In this document: positions 4,165 through 24,417 of the stretch, piece by piece
Layout of the letters: each line of letters starts with the position of its first letter
Numbering within the stretch: the first letter of the stretch is position 1
Origin: a virus
DNA length: 24,417 nucleotides
Strand: one strand, 5' to 3'
IMG/VR virus record: IMGVR_UViG_3300042480_000569
Location: 1-24,417 of that record
Translations under genes and position numbers: made by a program
The notes under the pieces: generated by a model
Told to the model about the DNA's origin: nothing
The model's database searches: none
The model's input: the letters and a program-made list of their open reading frames with translations, nothing else

Positions 4165-7100
4165 ATGGCGCTGCTCGGGAAAATCTCGGCCGTCCTGACT
4201 GCGAACACGCAGGACTTCACGCGCCGGATCGGCGAGTCGCGGCGTGAACTGCAGGATTTTGCCCGGCAGGCCCGCGGGGTTCAGTTCAACCTCAACACCC
4301 GCGCGCTCGACGGCACGCTGACACAACTGCAGCGGTTTCAGCGGCTGTTGCGGCAGATCGAAGACCTGCGCTCCAGAGGCATCGACGCCGGCCTGCCGGA
4401 CCCGCGGAGGCTGCGCGACCAGTTCCGCGTATTTGAGGACATCGGCAAGCCGCTGACAGCCCTCAAGAACCAGATCGAGGGGTTCTCAACATCCGTTCAG
4501 GCAAGCCTGTACCCGGCTTTGTCTGGGCTGCAGAACGAATTTCAGAGGCTTTTCGCGGAGATTGATGCCGGAACTACGACCCTCGACGCTTCCGGCCAGC
4601 GAATCGACGCCCTACGGCGTGGCCTTGTTGCTCTCGGCAGGGCGACTGCCATATCCGCGGACTTCAAGAAACTGGCCGAATCGCTTGAGGCGAAGAACGC
4701 TGGTGCGGACTTCTTCAATCCGCGGGCAAAGGAGTCGCTGACAGCAGCCCTTGCTCTGCGAAAGAAGGCGGCCGAAATACCGGCCCGGCTGCGGAGCGAC
4801 GTTTTCGCAGACCTCGCCGTCACCTCCGAGAGGAATGCGGCGCTGATTGAGCGGGCGGCGGCGAGGGTCGTGGCGGCGCAGGTTCGGATTGCCAGAGAGG
4901 GGGAAACCTCCGAAACGCTCACGGCGCGCGGCGTGGCCCAGCAGCGGCTCGATGCGCTGGTGCGGATCCAAGAAGCGACCAATATGTCGTTTCAGAGGGA
5001 GATTTCGTCGGCCGAAATCAAGCAGATCATCTCGCCAGACGCAGTGTCGCGCGTCGATCAACTGACAGACAAGTTTGGGGCTCTGTCTGCGAGACTTCGC
5101 GAGGGCGGCGACCAGAGGTTCGACGGGCTGATTGCCTCGGTCGGGCGGGTTATCGAGCAACTCAACCGCACAGAGGGTTCGGCAAAGAAGGCGAAACTCG
5201 CCATCGCGGCACTTGCTGGCGCGGACGCGACCAAGGCTTTCAACGCGTCTCGGTTTGATTCCGCAGACAAACTGATTCGCTCTGAATCAGAGCGCACGAT
5301 CGACAAGATCAGACGTGACGCCCAAACGCAGCGTAACAACATCATCGGCGACAGGCCGCAACTTGGAAGGCGCCGCAGTGCGGCCGTCGAAGGCGTAAAC
5401 CTTCAGGAAAACATCGCCCTTGCTGGCGAGGAGTTCAACCGCACCGCAGCCGAGAGAGTCGGAGACCTGTCTTCGCGGACTAAAACCCTCAAGGACGCCG
5501 GACTCGCTGCAGAACTCGACAAGATCAGAAACCTCGCAGTCGATGTCAATGGCACGCTGAAGCGAGCGTTCGACGCCAAAGATACGAAGGCCGGAGAGCA
5601 GGCGCTCGATGACTACAGAAGCAAGTTCCCTAAACTCGTTGAAGAAATCGACAAGTTTGAGAAGAAACTCAAGTCATCCGAGACGGCGAAAAAGCGGTTT
5701 GAGCAGTTTCTGACACTCTCAGGAAGCCGGAGCGACAAACTCGGCGCAGACCTTGAGCGCGCAGCCAGCGACATAACCGTTGCGAGGCAGTTTGCCGGCA
5801 ACTTTGGCGCTGGAAACATCGCTGGCCGCAGGAATGTCGCCACCGAGATCGAGAAGCAGATTGGCGTGTATCAGAGACTTGCTGAACTTCAGCAGCGAAT
5901 CTTTGACAAGGACTTCAAGAACGAAGGCGCCAAACTAAAGGCTATCCAGAAGGTCTCTGAGGCAGTTGTGCAGCAGAGGCAAATCCTGAAAGACACAGTC
6001 GTCAACAACAGCGGCGGGCTTGTAAACGCCCAGCAGTTCGACACTGCAGCCGACAAAGCGGCAAAGAATGCCGGGTCGTTCGGCGTGAGAGGCGCCGCCG
6101 TGGCGCAACTGGCGTTTCAGCAAGGGCTGTTCGCCATTGACGACCTAATTTCTTCAACAGGTGGACTTGAATACAAACTGCGCGCCGTCGGCAACAACAT
6201 CACGCAGTTGGGGCTTTTGCTAGGGCAGTCTGGCGTGATCCCCGGCCTCACGGCAACGACAGGTTTGTTTGTCGGCCTGTCTGTCGTTCTCGGCGGGCAG
6301 GCGCTGTCCACGATTCTTCGATGGGCCACTGGAGCCGAGGAGGCAGACGCACGGGCGAAAGCGCTGAACGACTCGCTCGCGAGGCAGAAGTCGCTCGTCG
6401 AAAGCCTTGTGCAGGCGTTTGGATCGCTCGGCGATTCGATTGCCGGAAAGGGGTTTTCTTCTGCGGGCCAGTCGGCGCGGGCGTTCAGGAAAGAACTCTC
6501 TGAAATTGACAGGAAGCAAAGAGAACTCAGGGAGGAGCGAGTTTCGTTCCTCGACCCACAAGTGCAAAGCGAGCGAGCCAAGCAGGCTACGCTTAGAAAG
6601 CGCCTCGATTCCTCGCAGGACGGAGGTCAGCGCGTCGCGATTTTGAGAGAGATAGAGGAGTCTCGCAGGAAGGAGCGCGAGGCGATTCGCGCTCGTGTTG
6701 GTGCTGCCGCTCCGTCAACGGATGCCGTTAGAGCGTCTGTCGTCAACAGCATTAGGGACTCTGAGTTCGCTAGGCTCACGGAGGAAAAGGGCGGCCTGTT
6801 CCCGGTGCGCCTAGTTGACGATCAGGCCAGAAGAGAGGCGGCGGCAAGGAGAAGTCGTGCTGCAAGGGACCTGGATGCAGCCGGATCAGACCCGCTTGCT
6901 CTGTCTCGTGTTGTTGAGCAGAGAATCAAGGAGCGGACGCAAACGGCCTCTCGCGACATCGGTGCGTTGGACTTCTTCACTGGAGATGCAGTAGAGATTA
7001 CGAACGCGCGCGAGGACGTTGCTGCCCTTACGACGCTCCTTGAGTCTTTGAGGCTCCCGGCAAGCCTTCAGGCAGACAAGGCAATCCAAGACATCTTCAA

Positions 7101-20630: not shown

Positions 20631-22007
20631 ATGCTCTGGCAGCATCAGCAGGAAGCGATTTCGTGGGCAATCGGACGACTCTGCGTCCTTTTGCACATGG
20701 GGATGGGGACCGGCAAATCCCGCGTCCTGCTTGAGATTCTGCGGGCCGAATCGCTGTCCCGCGTCTTGATCTGCTGCCCCAAGGCCGTCGTTCCGGCATG
20801 GGGTAAGCAGGGCGGCCTGTGGCTGCCCGAGTACCGGATCCTGCTGCTCACGAAGGGGTCCTCCAAGCAGAAGGAAAAACTCGTCGAGGCCGCCATGGCC
20901 GACAATTCGCCGCTCATCGTGGTCACGAACTACGAGTCGGCGTGGCGGATCCCGCTTCTGGAAAAGACCCAGTGGGACGCCATCTGCTACGACGAGTGCC
21001 ACAAACTCAAGGCTCCGAGCGGCACGACGAGCCGCTGGGCCGCCCGCATGGGCAAAAAGAACCCCACGGCCAAGCGCATCGGCCTGTCCGGCACGCTGCT
21101 GGCGCACTCGCCGCTCGATGCCTACGGCGTCTACAGGGCCGTCGAGTCGCCGGAGTGCCAGACGTTCGGGCAGTCATTCACGGCGTTTCGGTCACGCTAT
21201 GCCGTGACGCGGCCGGGCTATCCCGGCTGGGTCGTCGGCTACCGAAATACCGACGAGTTCGGCACGAAGATTGCACAAACGACGTTTCATCGACGGTCGG
21301 AAGACGTTTTGGATCTGCCTGACATCATGCACGAACAGGTGGACGTTGAGTTGTCGGACAAGGAGGCGGCCCTGTACCGTGCGCTGGATCGCGATTTCTG
21401 CGCGACGGTCGGCGGCCGCGAGGTCACGCCGGCCAATGTCCTCGTCCACCTCATCCGGCTGCTTGAGGTCTGCGGGGGCAGTATTCATGCCGACGGCTCC
21501 AAGCAGGCAATCACAATCGACGAGACTCCGAGCAAGGCGGCCGCGCTGTCTGATATTCTGGACTGTCTGGCTCACACAGAGCCGCTTGTCGTGTTTCATC
21601 GCTACAAAGCCGACGGCGAGGCCGCCGCCGCGGCCTGCATCAAGGCTGGCAGGTCTGTCAGCGTCCTGAACGGAGAACGCAACGAACTCGCCGACTGGCA
21701 GGCCGGGAGGACGACCGTGCTGATTGCGAACCAAGCCAGCGGCGGCGTCGGGATCGACCTGACGCGGGCGGCCTACGGCGTGTTCTACAGCCTCGGTCAC
21801 AGTCTGAGCGACTACCTGCAGGCGATCGCCCGGCTGCACCGCCCCGGGCAGGCCAAGAAAACGCATTTTTACAGTCTGGTGGCTACGGTAGACGGCAACC
21901 AGACGGTGGACGGAGCGGTCTACAAGGCTTTGGAAAGCAGACAGGAGGTCATTGATGCAATCATTACAGGCTACAGAGACTCACAACGGGCTCTCGGGGC
22001 TGCTTGA
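20631..22007 (+). CDS. SNF2-family DEAD/DEAH-box helicase / DNA translocase
   Basis: The 458-residue protein is a compact superfamily 2, SNF2-type ATPase. Motif I is M-G-M-G-T-G-K-S (residues 23-30), motif II is D-E-C-H-K-L-K (121-127; Cys in place of the usual Ala/Gly), and motif III is L-S-G-T (152-155). The second lobe has the Q-A-S-G-G-V-G-I-D-L motif V and Q-A-I-A-R-L-H-R-P-G-Q motif VI near residues 367-405, the latter close to the SNF2 Q-x-x-x-R-x-x-R-x-G-Q form. Such phage enzymes are thought to move on or open double-stranded DNA at replication or recombination. A perfect AAGGAGG precedes the ATG, and it is the first gene of the replication block. No accessory domains are visible. 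Confidence 0.9.
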   Translation: MLWQHQQEAISWAIGRLCVLLHMGMGTGKSRVLLEILRAESLSRVLICCPKAVVPAWGKQGGLWLPEYRILLLTKGSSKQKEKLVEAAMADNSPLIVVTNYESAWRIPLLEKTQWDAICYDECHKLKAPSGTTSRWAARMGKKNPTAKRIGLSGTLLAHSPLDAYGVYRAVESPECQTFGQSFTAFRSRYAVTRPGYPGWVVGYRNTDEFGTKIAQTTFHRRSEDVLDLPDIMHEQVDVELSDKEAALYRALDRDFCATVGGREVTPANVLVHLIRLLEVCGGSIHADGSKQAITIDETPSKAAALSDILDCLAHTEPLVVFHRYKADGEAAAAACIKAGRSVSVLNGERNELADWQAGRTTVLIANQASGGVGIDLTRAAYGVFYSLGHSLSDYLQAIARLHRPGQAKKTHFYSLVATVDGNQTVDGAVYKALESRQEVIDAIITGYRDSQRALGAA

Positions 22008-22404
22008 GGAAATCACCCGGCTCGACCGCGAGATTGGCACGCTATCTGCACAACTCGACGACATGAAGAAGCGTCGGGCCAATTTGGAGCAGATCGCCGT
22101 GGAGGACATGACGGTGCAACGGCTCGACGGAGTTCGGGTCGCAGGGAGGAGTTGGCGGGTGGAGGAGTCCCTCCATCTGTCGGTGCCGAGGGATCGGCGC
22201 GACGCGGTGCTGGAAGCAGCGCGGGCCGTCGGGATCGAGGATGCGATCACGACGGTCGCCACCACGACGCTGAAGTCGTGGCTTGTCGAGCGAGCGAAGG
22301 AGGCCGGCAGGGAAGCCGGCTCCCCGTTCGCGTCGGGTACGCCGTTCGACGGTCTGGTCGGCGAGTACACGGAGATGAAGTTGCGTCATGTCACGGTTGG
22401 CTGA
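21955..22404 (+). CDS. Small coiled-coil protein of the replication block (unknown)
   Basis: The 149-residue protein overlaps the helicase end by about 50 bases and starts at ATG 21955, six bases after GGAGG. It opens with a strong coiled-coil helix (LLEEITRLDREIGTLSAQLDDMKKRR, residues about 16-42, described by its ends only), then V-x-h-x-x-R-S-W-R-V and a DRRDAVLEAARAVGIED helix, with a TTLKSWLVERAKEAG helix near the end. The arrangement (coiled coil then a small domain) resembles small phage proteins found next to replication helicases, such as Gp157-like proteins, but I cannot place it. It is likely a partner of the helicase or DNA. Confidence 0.7.
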   Translation: MQSLQATETHNGLSGLLEEITRLDREIGTLSAQLDDMKKRRANLEQIAVEDMTVQRLDGVRVAGRSWRVEESLHLSVPRDRRDAVLEAARAVGIEDAITTVATTTLKSWLVERAKEAGREAGSPFASGTPFDGLVGEYTEMKLRHVTVG

Positions 22405-22440: not shown

Positions 22441-23220
22441 ATGGCTACCGCAGATTTGTCAGTGAAGACGGTCGATTATCCGGCACTGTCGCCGGATTCG
22501 CGGCAGATGCAGATCATCGCCGCCAATCTGGAAGGCGAGCCGATGCAGGAGACGGACCTCGTCCGCGTCAAGACGCCCCTCGGCGGGGCGACCCAGTGGA
22601 CGATCGACGTTGACGGCAACATGACGACGACGGACGAGATCGTCGGGCTGCTCGTCGGAATCGGGAAGCGTGGGGTCCTGTGGCCCGAGGAGGACCCGAG
22701 CGATGCCCGGCCGGTCATCGTGACCAACGACCTGCAGATCGGATACCGGGTGTCGGACGACATCGGGACTTCGATCAAGCCGGAGTCGCTGGAGAAGTAC
22801 CGGATCGGGGACCGGAAGTACGACTGGGTGTCCCTGTCCAACGGGCCGGAGTTCGGCTACGGCAGCAGCCGCGGAGGCTCCGGCAAGCGGTGCAAGGAGG
22901 CTCGCGTGCTGGCGATCCTGCGTCAGGGCGAGACTTGGCCGATTCTGGTGACGGTGGGTCCCGGCAGCCTGCGGAACATCATTCCGTTTCTCCGGCGGCT
23001 GCCAGTGTTCCCGCATGAGGCTGTGATCGGCCTCAAGTTGGTGAAGGCGAAGGGGCGCGGCGGCCAGCCGTACTCCCAGATCGTTCCGCGTCTGGCCGGC
23101 ACGATCACGCCCGAGCAGGGTGAGGTCGCGCGGCGGGTCTACGCGGATCCGATCAACGCGATGTTCACCGCGCCGCCGATCGCGTCGGCCGTGGGGTCCG
23201 ACGACCTCAGCGACGAGTAG
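22441..23220 (+). CDS. Replication-block protein (unknown, 259 residues)
   Basis: ACAGGAGG lies seven bases before the ATG. The protein is mixed alpha/beta with basic patches (GSSRGGSGKRCKEARV, then ILVTVGPGSLRNIIPFLRRL) and a beta-rich start (SVKTVDYPALSPDSRQMQI). The order helicase, coiled-coil protein, this protein, primase is typical of a phage replication module. A single-strand DNA-binding or primase-helper function is plausible, but no OB-fold signature is certain. It ends in an acidic tail (SDDLSDE), as do many single-strand DNA-binding proteins, which hints in that direction. No annotation beyond this is supported. Confidence 0.75.
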   Translation: MATADLSVKTVDYPALSPDSRQMQIIAANLEGEPMQETDLVRVKTPLGGATQWTIDVDGNMTTTDEIVGLLVGIGKRGVLWPEEDPSDARPVIVTNDLQIGYRVSDDIGTSIKPESLEKYRIGDRKYDWVSLSNGPEFGYGSSRGGSGKRCKEARVLAILRQGETWPILVTVGPGSLRNIIPFLRRLPVFPHEAVIGLKLVKAKGRGGQPYSQIVPRLAGTITPEQGEVARRVYADPINAMFTAPPIASAVGSDDLSDE

Positions 23221-23227
23221 ACCAGTT

Positions 23228-23277
23228 GGCTGGACCGGCGGCCCGAACCCACGGCTTCGTGGGCCGGTCGCCCAGCC
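23228..23277 (+). other. Structured RNA element directly after the 259-residue gene
   Basis: GGCTGG-ACCGG (23228-23238) pairs with CCGGT-CGC-CCAGCC (23264-23277), leaving a three-base bulge. Inside is a hairpin CCCACG-GCTT-CGTGGG (23248-23263) and a nine-base one-sided bulge (23239-23247). About 17 base pairs form in 50 bases starting seven bases after the stop. No T tract follows, so it is not an obvious terminator. Confidence 0.6.
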
Positions 23278-23309
23278 AGAGGTGGCGTCGTAACACTGGA
23301 AGTTATCTG

Positions 23310-23341
23310 GCTGCAGGGCGTCATTCTCCCGTCACTGCAGC
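23310..23341 (+). other. Inverted repeat in the primase leader
   Basis: GCTGCAG (23310-23316) and CTGCAGC (23335-23341) are perfect arms around an 18-base loop. It lies 12 bases before the strong hairpin at 23353. It could be an alternative RNA helix or a protein site. Confidence 0.4.
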
Positions 23342-23352
23342 GGATGGCACTC

Positions 23353-23393
23353 GGCGCCGCCTGGGGGTTCGCCCCCGGGCGGCGCCTCTTTCT
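23353..23393 (+). terminator. Intrinsic-terminator-like hairpin within the primase 5' leader
   Basis: GGCGCCGCC (23353-23361) and GGCGGCGCC (23378-23386) form nine pairs, and GGGGG/CCCCC form five more with one T-G wobble in between, closed by the stable TTCG tetraloop (23368-23371). TCTTTCT follows. It would stop or strongly pause polymerase. It ends 17-18 bases before the primase start codon, so the primase must be expressed through it (see findings). Confidence 0.75.
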
Positions 23394-23410
23394 CGCACGG
23401 AGGCACGATC

Positions 23411-24417
23411 GTGGAAGACTTCTTCAAAGCGGCTGCTTCGTATGCAGCCATCGGCTGGCGCTGCCTGCCGATCAACGGCCTGCGGCCCGACGGCAAGACC
23501 TGCACCTGCCTGTACGGCCCCGCATGCGGCACCCCCGGCAAGCATCCTGTGCATCCCAAGTGGCAGGTCATTGCCACGACTGACGAGGACACGCTTGCGG
23601 AGTGGTTCGACGAGTCGGCGAACGTCAACATCGGCGTCGCCCTTGGGCGCGAGTCGGGCATCGTCGATATTGAGTGGGACGATGCGATCGGCAAAGAGAC
23701 GGCCGAGAAGTTCGGCCTGCATCTGATCGAGACGCCGACCTACATCTCGCACCGCAGCGAACACCGGCTCTTCCGGTTCGATGATCGGCTGCCGGAGCAG
23801 GCCGTCATCAAGGTCGGCGGGCTGGAGATCCGCATTGGCGGCGGCGGCAAGGGGGCGCAGTCGGTGTTTCCTCCGTCCGTCCATGCCTCTGGCGTCCGGT
23901 ATCGGTGGAAGCACGGCTACTCGCCAGACGAGGTTCAGCCGGCCGAGATCCCGCCCGAAATGATGCAGGCGATACTCAAGACGACAAGCCGCGAGGTCGC
24001 CGCCAAGCCTCCGGCCAGCGAGATCCTTCACCGGAAGGTCGATTCCGGATCCCGGCACCTGACCATGGTGCGGTACATCGCTTCCAAGTGCGTGCGGATG
24101 CTCGATCCGCACGATCCACGGGAGCAGCAGGAGACGCTGATTGAGTCCAAGGCAATAAATTTGACTCAATGCGTTCCACCGCTGCCCGACATCGAGGTGG
24201 AGAACATCTGGCGCGGTCAGATCCGATGGGCCATCAAGGTGCGGGCCGAGGGCGGCGGGCCGGAGTTCTTGAAGAGGCGACTGGAGGAGCGGATCGAGTC
24301 GGGCGGCATCGACGAGCCTGCCGAGGCCGACGAGCCAGTGGACTGCCCGTTCACGCTCAACGGCCTTGAGTTTCGGGACGGCGAGTGGTTCCCCGGCCGG
24401 TGGCGGCTCAAGGTCGT
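23411..24417 (+). CDS. Bifunctional DNA primase/polymerase (PrimPol) N-terminal part, cut at the window end
   Basis: The frame is open from GTG 23411 to the end (335 codons, no stop). CGGAGG lies eight bases upstream. It starts with a helix and G-W-R-C-L-P (A-x-x-Y-A-A-I-G-W), then a Cys-rich loop C31-x-C33...C39 and G-K-H-P (residues 43-46), then W-Q-V-I-A-T-T and E-W-F...N-I-G-V-A-L-G. This is the usual PrimPol order. Catalytic acids are in V-D-I-E-W-D (85-90, D86 and E88), the S-x-H motif is S116-E-H118, and P-P-S appears at 154-156. It would synthesise primers and extend them in phage replication. A helicase domain may follow outside the window. It lacks any visible start alternative. Confidence 0.85.
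   Translation, partial: MEDFFKAAASYAAIGWRCLPINGLRPDGKTCTCLYGPACGTPGKHPVHPKWQVIATTDEDTLAEWFDESANVNIGVALGRESGIVDIEWDDAIGKETAEKFGLHLIETPTYISHRSEHRLFRFDDRLPEQAVIKVGGLEIRIGGGGKGAQSVFPPSVHASGVRYRWKHGYSPDEVQPAEIPPEMMQAILKTTSREVAAKPPASEILHRKVDSGSRHLTMVRYIASKCVRMLDPHDPREQQETLIESKAINLTQCVPPLPDIEVENIWRGQIRWAIKVRAEGGGPEFLKRRLEERIESGGIDEPAEADEPVDCPFTLNGLEFRDGEWFPGRWRLKV

Follow-up and report, generated by a model that had tools for sequence, protein, structure and literature searches.

A conserved structured RNA joined to a predicted terminator ahead of the PrimPol gene in a group of mostly uncultured phages

In phage lambda, the nutR-tR1 region combines an RNA element, nut, which contains boxA and boxB and requires N, with a terminator that has to be passed for expression of the phage replication genes, and in the P4 CI and P1 C4 systems a phage leader RNA and terminators control a primase operon, the processed RNA pairing with the leader. 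The put RNA of phage HK022, located just downstream of an early promoter, is a two-stem RNA that binds the zinc-binding domain of the RNA polymerase beta' subunit and suppresses terminators without a protein (PMC9378689). IsrK of Gifsy-1 is a short RNA that is transcribed from its own promoter and ends at a terminator, its read-through form being an mRNA, and it acts in trans on this long form (PMC4825925). Here we describe a structured RNA that runs into a predicted intrinsic terminator, located between the gene for P0002, a replication-associated protein, and a PrimPol-type primase gene on the IMG/VR record IMGVR_UViG_3300042480_000569, of which 24,417 nt (the 24.4 kb window) were analysed. 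Sequence comparison strongly supports an arrangement in which transcription has to get past the terminator joined to the RNA in order to reach PrimPol.

The gap between the two genes is more strongly folded than its dinucleotide shuffles (-109.1 versus -90.3 kcal/mol, z -4.4, with none of 200 shuffles as good). The original prediction, made from the letters of the window, had three folded elements filling this gap, and as a whole it was partly confirmed: the letters, the strength of the fold and the terminator stood, whereas the layout of the helices had to be redrawn, since a complete hairpin (P3) had been missed and P4 is longer than proposed, and the proposed switch was not supported. The following features were assigned, those of the P1/P2 hairpin and P2 by comparison of relatives:

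22441-23220, + strand: gene for P0002, 259 amino acids, the constant 5' neighbour of the RNA
23221-23410, + strand: intergenic gap of 190 nt holding the structured RNA and the terminator
23221-23352, + strand: structured RNA core P1-P4, scored by model R1 at 105 bits (E 2e-22) in the window
23228-23277, + strand: P1/P2 hairpin
23228-23233 with 23272-23277, + strand: P1, of which the two outer pairs overlap P3
23234-23238 with 23264-23268, + strand: P2, ACCGG/CCGGU
23248-23253 with 23258-23263, + strand: variable inner hairpin of the P1/P2 domain
23276-23299, + strand: P3 hairpin, CCAG/CUGG
23282-23286 and 23290-23294, + strand: conserved P3 loop motif, GUGGC and GUAAC, respectively
23300-23301, + strand: AA linker from P3 to P4
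23302-23348, + strand: P4 hairpin, GUUAUCUG (23302-23309) with CGGAUGGC (23341-23348)
about 23322-23329, + strand: pyrimidine-rich loop of P4, on the inner stem CUGCAG/CUGCAG
23353-23386, + strand: predicted intrinsic terminator hairpin, 15 bp, -37 kcal/mol
23387-23393, + strand: TCTTTCT, the T-rich terminator tail
23399-23403, + strand: GGAGG, Shine-Dalgarno-like sequence of the PrimPol gene
23411-24415, + strand: PrimPol gene with GTG start, continuing past the window end (Pfam PF09250, E 1e-23; PHROG 1156, DNA primase)

R1 is a covariance model of the part that precedes the terminator, based on 21 seed sequences and a structure that we supplied; because the window is among the seeds, its own score is high by construction, and the independent evidence comes from other contigs and from the pair counts. 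The latter come from the R1 alignment, which comprises 50 distinct copies and, being fitted to the structure, favours it: 90.7% of the cells are paired, 19 of the 31 pairs show double-sided change, and the double-sided cells number 214, versus a mean of 64 in shuffles and 21-38 when the helix partners are slid. Plain MAFFT alignments give the same co-changes, for instance CCAG/CUGG, CCGC/GCGG, GCCG/CGGC and CCCG/CGGG in P3. The RNA is thus a conserved structure with compensatory change beyond the slid and shuffled controls, and covariation across related phages, which had been proposed as a check, was found. Support is unevenly distributed over the helices: all four pairs of P3 changed on both sides and are paired in 100% of the cells, 13 of the 15 pairs of P4 (helices 5-7) changed on both sides, and P2 is paired in 99%, with co-changes to GGCGG/CCGCC (locus L054) and GCGGG/CCCGC (L096), while P1 has the least support (78% paired). 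Two loci, L092 and L093, are natural deletions that lost the P1/P2 domain and retained P3, P4 and the terminator. Because of these losses and the weakness of P1, we regard P3, P4 and the terminator as the core of a conserved order that runs from P1/P2 through P3, with its almost fixed loop GUGGC-N-GUAAC, the AA linker and P4 with its pyrimidine loop to the terminator. The loop letters UGGC and AAC and the AA linker are near-invariant, and the middle of the P3 loop differs in length and letters.

Since G-U cells outnumber A-C cells (143 versus 43, and 27 of these 43 fall in a single P1 pair that is doubtful), the folded strand is the gene-sense one. This bears on the proposal that the hairpins act as a DNA element, such as a single-stranded origin or a packaging site, for which their position within the replication gene block would be fitting; a G-U tolerance found mainly on the sense strand, a T tail on the sense side and a fixed order at the end of a gene make this proposal scarcely credible.

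The RNA core is followed by a GC-rich hairpin with a direct T tract, and no other hairpin in the window is strong, perfect and followed by a T tract. As predicted originally, this hairpin has a TTCG loop and a TCTTTCT tail, and the tail ends 17 nt before the GTG at 23411, which leaves hardly any room for a promoter behind it. No sigma70-like promoter was detected in the last 2 kb, including the stretch from terminator to GTG, with a consensus that may not be that of the host (perhaps a member of the Planctomycetota). Among relatives, the terminators are unrelated in sequence between groups, and nearly all reach -31 to -42 kcal/mol, carry a T tail and usually lie 5-11 nt behind P4. This conservation in homologues identifies the element, at the sequence level, as an intrinsic terminator. 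The next start codon is mostly found 20-40 nt past the terminator, together with a Shine-Dalgarno-like sequence, in a survey whose ORF picks were mechanical, with a few rows out of frame. A PrimPol gene is located downstream in all 46 loci tested, within about 22-53 nt in 20 of them and after about 0.35-1.26 kb in the other 26, which usually have one recognisable ORF, such as an HNH-type gene, in between. The claim that PrimPol transcription must pass the terminator is therefore strongly supported by the fixed order and the short distance to the next start: a promoter hardly fits in between, and polymerases transcribing the next gene should therefore have come through the terminator. It is chiefly for this reason that we read the module as a gate. 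The RNA was originally taken for a leader of PrimPol. A structured RNA does precede the terminator, but it is not simply a PrimPol leader, because more than half of the loci (26/46) have inserts while P0002 upstream is constant. The accessory genes at this insertion site are unrelated to each other (HNH endonuclease-like, PLD-like, CxxC proteins and others) and occupy the same place in L057, L060, L061, L063, L069, L074, L079, L085 and other loci.

The original prediction further proposed a classical attenuator, in which the leader would either form its own helices or pair with the terminator arm. Both complementarities on which it was based, CGAACCC/GGGTTCG and GGCGGC/GCCGCC, are correctly read in the window, and structured RNA, near-invariant loop letters and an intrinsic terminator behind it are what one would see in a riboswitch or attenuator. 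The comparison of the 46 loci contradicts the mutually exclusive pairing: CGAACCC/GGGTTCG is present in a single locus, that of the window's own phage, and GGCGGC pairs with the terminator arm in eight, seven of which belong to this phage and its nearest relatives. In addition, duplex energies of the core with its own terminator are no better than those with terminators of other phages (median rank 0.45 and 0.52). As the pairings are rare and swapped terminators do equally well, the switch is not supported, and an attenuator of this type is very improbable. Unlike a riboswitch or attenuator, the RNA shows no conserved antiterminator pairing, has no constant metabolic gene next to it and is absent from Rfam; unlike the P4 CI and P1 C4 RNAs, which resemble it as leader RNAs with terminators before a primase, it has no conserved complementarity to the terminator and no Rfam match.

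We propose instead that the nascent RNA through P3-AA-P4 sets the read-through of the adjoining terminator before PrimPol, as a new family of such elements, and we put the probability of this reading at roughly 45%. The P0002 message would end in a structured RNA of about 130 nt leading directly into a strong intrinsic terminator. Termination at this point would be the expected fate of most transcripts, leaving P0002 messages whose 3' end is structured, and a fraction of the polymerases would continue into PrimPol, or into an inserted gene and then PrimPol. The nascent P3-AA-P4 part, which would exit the polymerase just before the terminator is reached, probably tunes this read-through by contact with the polymerase or with a phage or host factor, like lambda nutR at tR1 or HK022 put alone, rather than by exchanging strands with the terminator. 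The sequences themselves show the fold with its covariation and strand, the terminator hairpin, the fixed order, the want of promoter space and the lack of strand exchange; activity of the terminator in the host, regulation of read-through and the role of the RNA in it are what we infer.

The closest analogue is put (putL/putR), with which the RNA shares a phage-encoded, nascent nature, neighbouring stem-loops, a very short linker and a proposed role in terminator read-through, so that it may work like put. It differs in length (about 130 nt), in having three hairpin domains and in its position behind the P0002 gene, within a block of co-directional genes and directly before the terminator, as well as in its hosts; because position, length and stem number differ, we did not file it as put. 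That P3-AA-P4 binds the polymerase as a protein-free antiterminator outside the lambdoid phages, an independent invention of the put principle in poorly studied hosts that are perhaps Planctomycetota, is a distinctly unlikely extension. With lambda nutR-tR1 the locus shares an RNA element and a terminator before phage replication genes, and differs in that no N-like protein was identified (boxA and boxB were not searched for).

Several points weigh against an antitermination RNA, which nevertheless is our leading reading. It rests on position and analogy, and the tight link with P0002 fits a 3'UTR or a trans-acting RNA equally well. Structure modelling and comparison of P0002 with AF2 and Foldseek gave no RNA-binding assignment. 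Sister phages that lack the RNA still have the hairpin and PrimPol, so PrimPol expression does not generally depend on the RNA. Finally, as the sigma70 consensus may not be that of the host, a short promoter may have gone unrecognised.

The distribution of the RNA was determined starting from P0002 homologues gathered from viral contigs (single-sequence and alignment searches) and from genome contigs. R1 matched about 63 IMG/VR viral contigs and one Planctomycetota metagenome-assembled genome (MAG) contig, L103, and wherever the contig has P0002 complete, the match adjoins the P0002 stop on its 3' side. Nearly all P0002 homologues with at least about 56% identity are followed by the RNA and then by the terminator, and a strong R1 copy was present once per record in 21 of 21 records; a second, 22-bit match in G001, on the opposite strand, was judged to be due to chance. 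Motif scans independent of P0002 gave the same picture. A strict scan of 2.9 million viral contigs returned 17 contigs, every one a known P0002 holder; a loose DNA motif scan yielded, among the matches listed, at least four new R1-scored contigs, all with P0002 directly upstream; and a scan for the 3' strand of P2/P1 found no new RNA contig, its single strong match, L373, scoring the same as the known L095. Because these scans gave no copy elsewhere, the RNA occurs only behind P0002 in the scanned data, as judged from the stricter scans and the matches listed by the looser one.

This link is relevant for an alternative in which a stable small RNA, either derived from the 3'UTR or independent, acts in trans, for instance via the loop of P3 or the pyrimidine loop of P4; the terminator would only serve to end it, and PrimPol would be expressed from ordinary leakage or from a second transcript. 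A precedent is IsrK of Gifsy-1, a phage RNA that exists in a short, terminated form and in one made by read-through (PMC4825925), and it resembles the RNA described here in ending at a terminator with a possible read-through mRNA form. The conserved loop GUGGC..GUAAC, the pyrimidine-rich P4 loop, the strong terminator that always comes next and the single copy per genome would all suit such an RNA. It would not need a link with P0002 and PrimPol, away from which the RNA was never found in the scans done, and no target is known. Whereas IsrK has its own promoter, none was seen here in the sigma70-like scan, with the same reservation as to the host, and the 3' end of P0002 shows no dip in synonymous variation, which speaks against an independent promoter at that place. 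We consider such an RNA rather unlikely.

A sister clade, L289-L298 (47-48% identity in P0002), and the Planctomycetota MAG contig L104 (VGYP01000148.1, 46%) have no RNA and keep a strong hairpin followed by a primase gene. Phages that have the RNA score better for the T tract than the sister clade without it (4.9 versus 3.6 of 8, p 0.001, with kinship ignored and each clade being one lineage), as expected if the RNA and the terminator evolved together. A partial terminator combined with a structure that stabilises or processes the mRNA could also account for this locus, yielding much P0002 and little PrimPol, with the RNA guarding the 3' end of P0002 without regulatory input. The hairpin that stands alone in the sister clade would be in line with this, as would strong hairpins between a P0002 homologue and a primase gene in THSA-485A and FP_Epona, but such a structure would need neither the near-invariant loop letters (UGGC, AAC, AAG) nor a complex P1-P4 fold maintained by compensation, and we regard it as unlikely. 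The sister-clade and L104 hairpins are found 20-30 nt 3' of the P0002 homologue, at -31 to -38 kcal/mol, with a nearly constant loop GUGGAGAC and an often poor T tract.

An uncatalogued phage RNA family, absent from Rfam, is strongly supported. No family of Rfam 15 reached its gathering score over the whole window. In permissive scans of three copies, the best matches were RsmW (E 0.004, 27.9 of 52 bits, in L026) and Rhizobiales-2 (E 0.06, 29.4 of 40 bits, in the window); each was below threshold and found in one copy only, and neither was retained as an identity. The newness was judged against Rfam and not compared with motif surveys such as that of the human microbiome of 2021, so an earlier description outside Rfam is possible. 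ARAGORN found no tRNA or tmRNA. Among known phages in GenBank there was no match at the DNA level, and protein homologues reach only about 26% identity. P0002 homologues on two Planctomycetota MAG contigs, L104 and L103 (JAIOQB010000220.1, 66%), weakly suggest Planctomycetota as the hosts of this phage group.

The family adds to the known structured RNAs one that is present once per phage in widespread, mostly uncultured phages, and together with its terminator it has the appearance of a built-in replication gate. It allows a direct and cheap question to be asked, namely what effect the RNA has on read-through of its own terminator. Should it change this read-through without a protein, antitermination by RNA alone would have a further natural example, and these phages a way to time or dose their primase; otherwise, it would still be a new 3'-end RNA, fixed beside a replication gene that has no assigned function.

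Several further observations were made on the fold. The P2 helix suggested by the single-sequence fold, GGCGGCC/GGUCGCC, does not hold in the L054-L056 and L057 types and was replaced by ACCGG/CCGGU. A pseudoknot between GGAAG and CUUUCC of the P4 loop, and base pairs between this loop and the Shine-Dalgarno sequence downstream, look good by eye in some copies, and neither shows consistent co-change. The sequence GUGAAGUCGUAAC is conserved near the 3' end of 16S rRNA; the P3 loop GUGGCGUCGUAAC (23282-23294) resembles it, probably by chance, as the middle letters differ among relatives. A strongly diverged copy that R1 missed was recognised by eye and by folding in the low-GC locus L245 (P0002 72% identical), from 3254, with P3 as CCCAC/GUGGG, a loop ending in AUAAC, and then AAGU and a P4-like stem.

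P0002 itself belongs to PHROG 23155, a family without function annotation, and sequence searches found no relative in Pfam, NCBIfam or PDB. Its AF2 model, based on 30 sequences (pLDDT 85.7), has no significant match among PDB folds, the weak ones including single-stranded-DNA-binding OB folds such as SsbA, and matches among viral models are mostly unnamed phage proteins, one being annotated as a recombination directionality factor. The right end of the window encodes, all on the + strand, an SNF2-type helicase, a Pam3 gp33-like protein, P0002 and, after the gap, the PrimPol-type primase:

20631-22007, + strand: SNF2-type helicase gene
21952-22404, + strand: gene for the Pam3 gp33-like protein

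In FP_Epona and THSA-485A the P0002 homologue sits between an SNF2 helicase gene and a primase gene, and this position suggests that P0002 likely has a role in replication. In these two Firmicutes phages, the strong hairpin directly 3' of the P0002 homologue and before the primase gene is located at 4215-4290 (L300, FP_Epona) and 4185-4230 (L301, THSA-485A).
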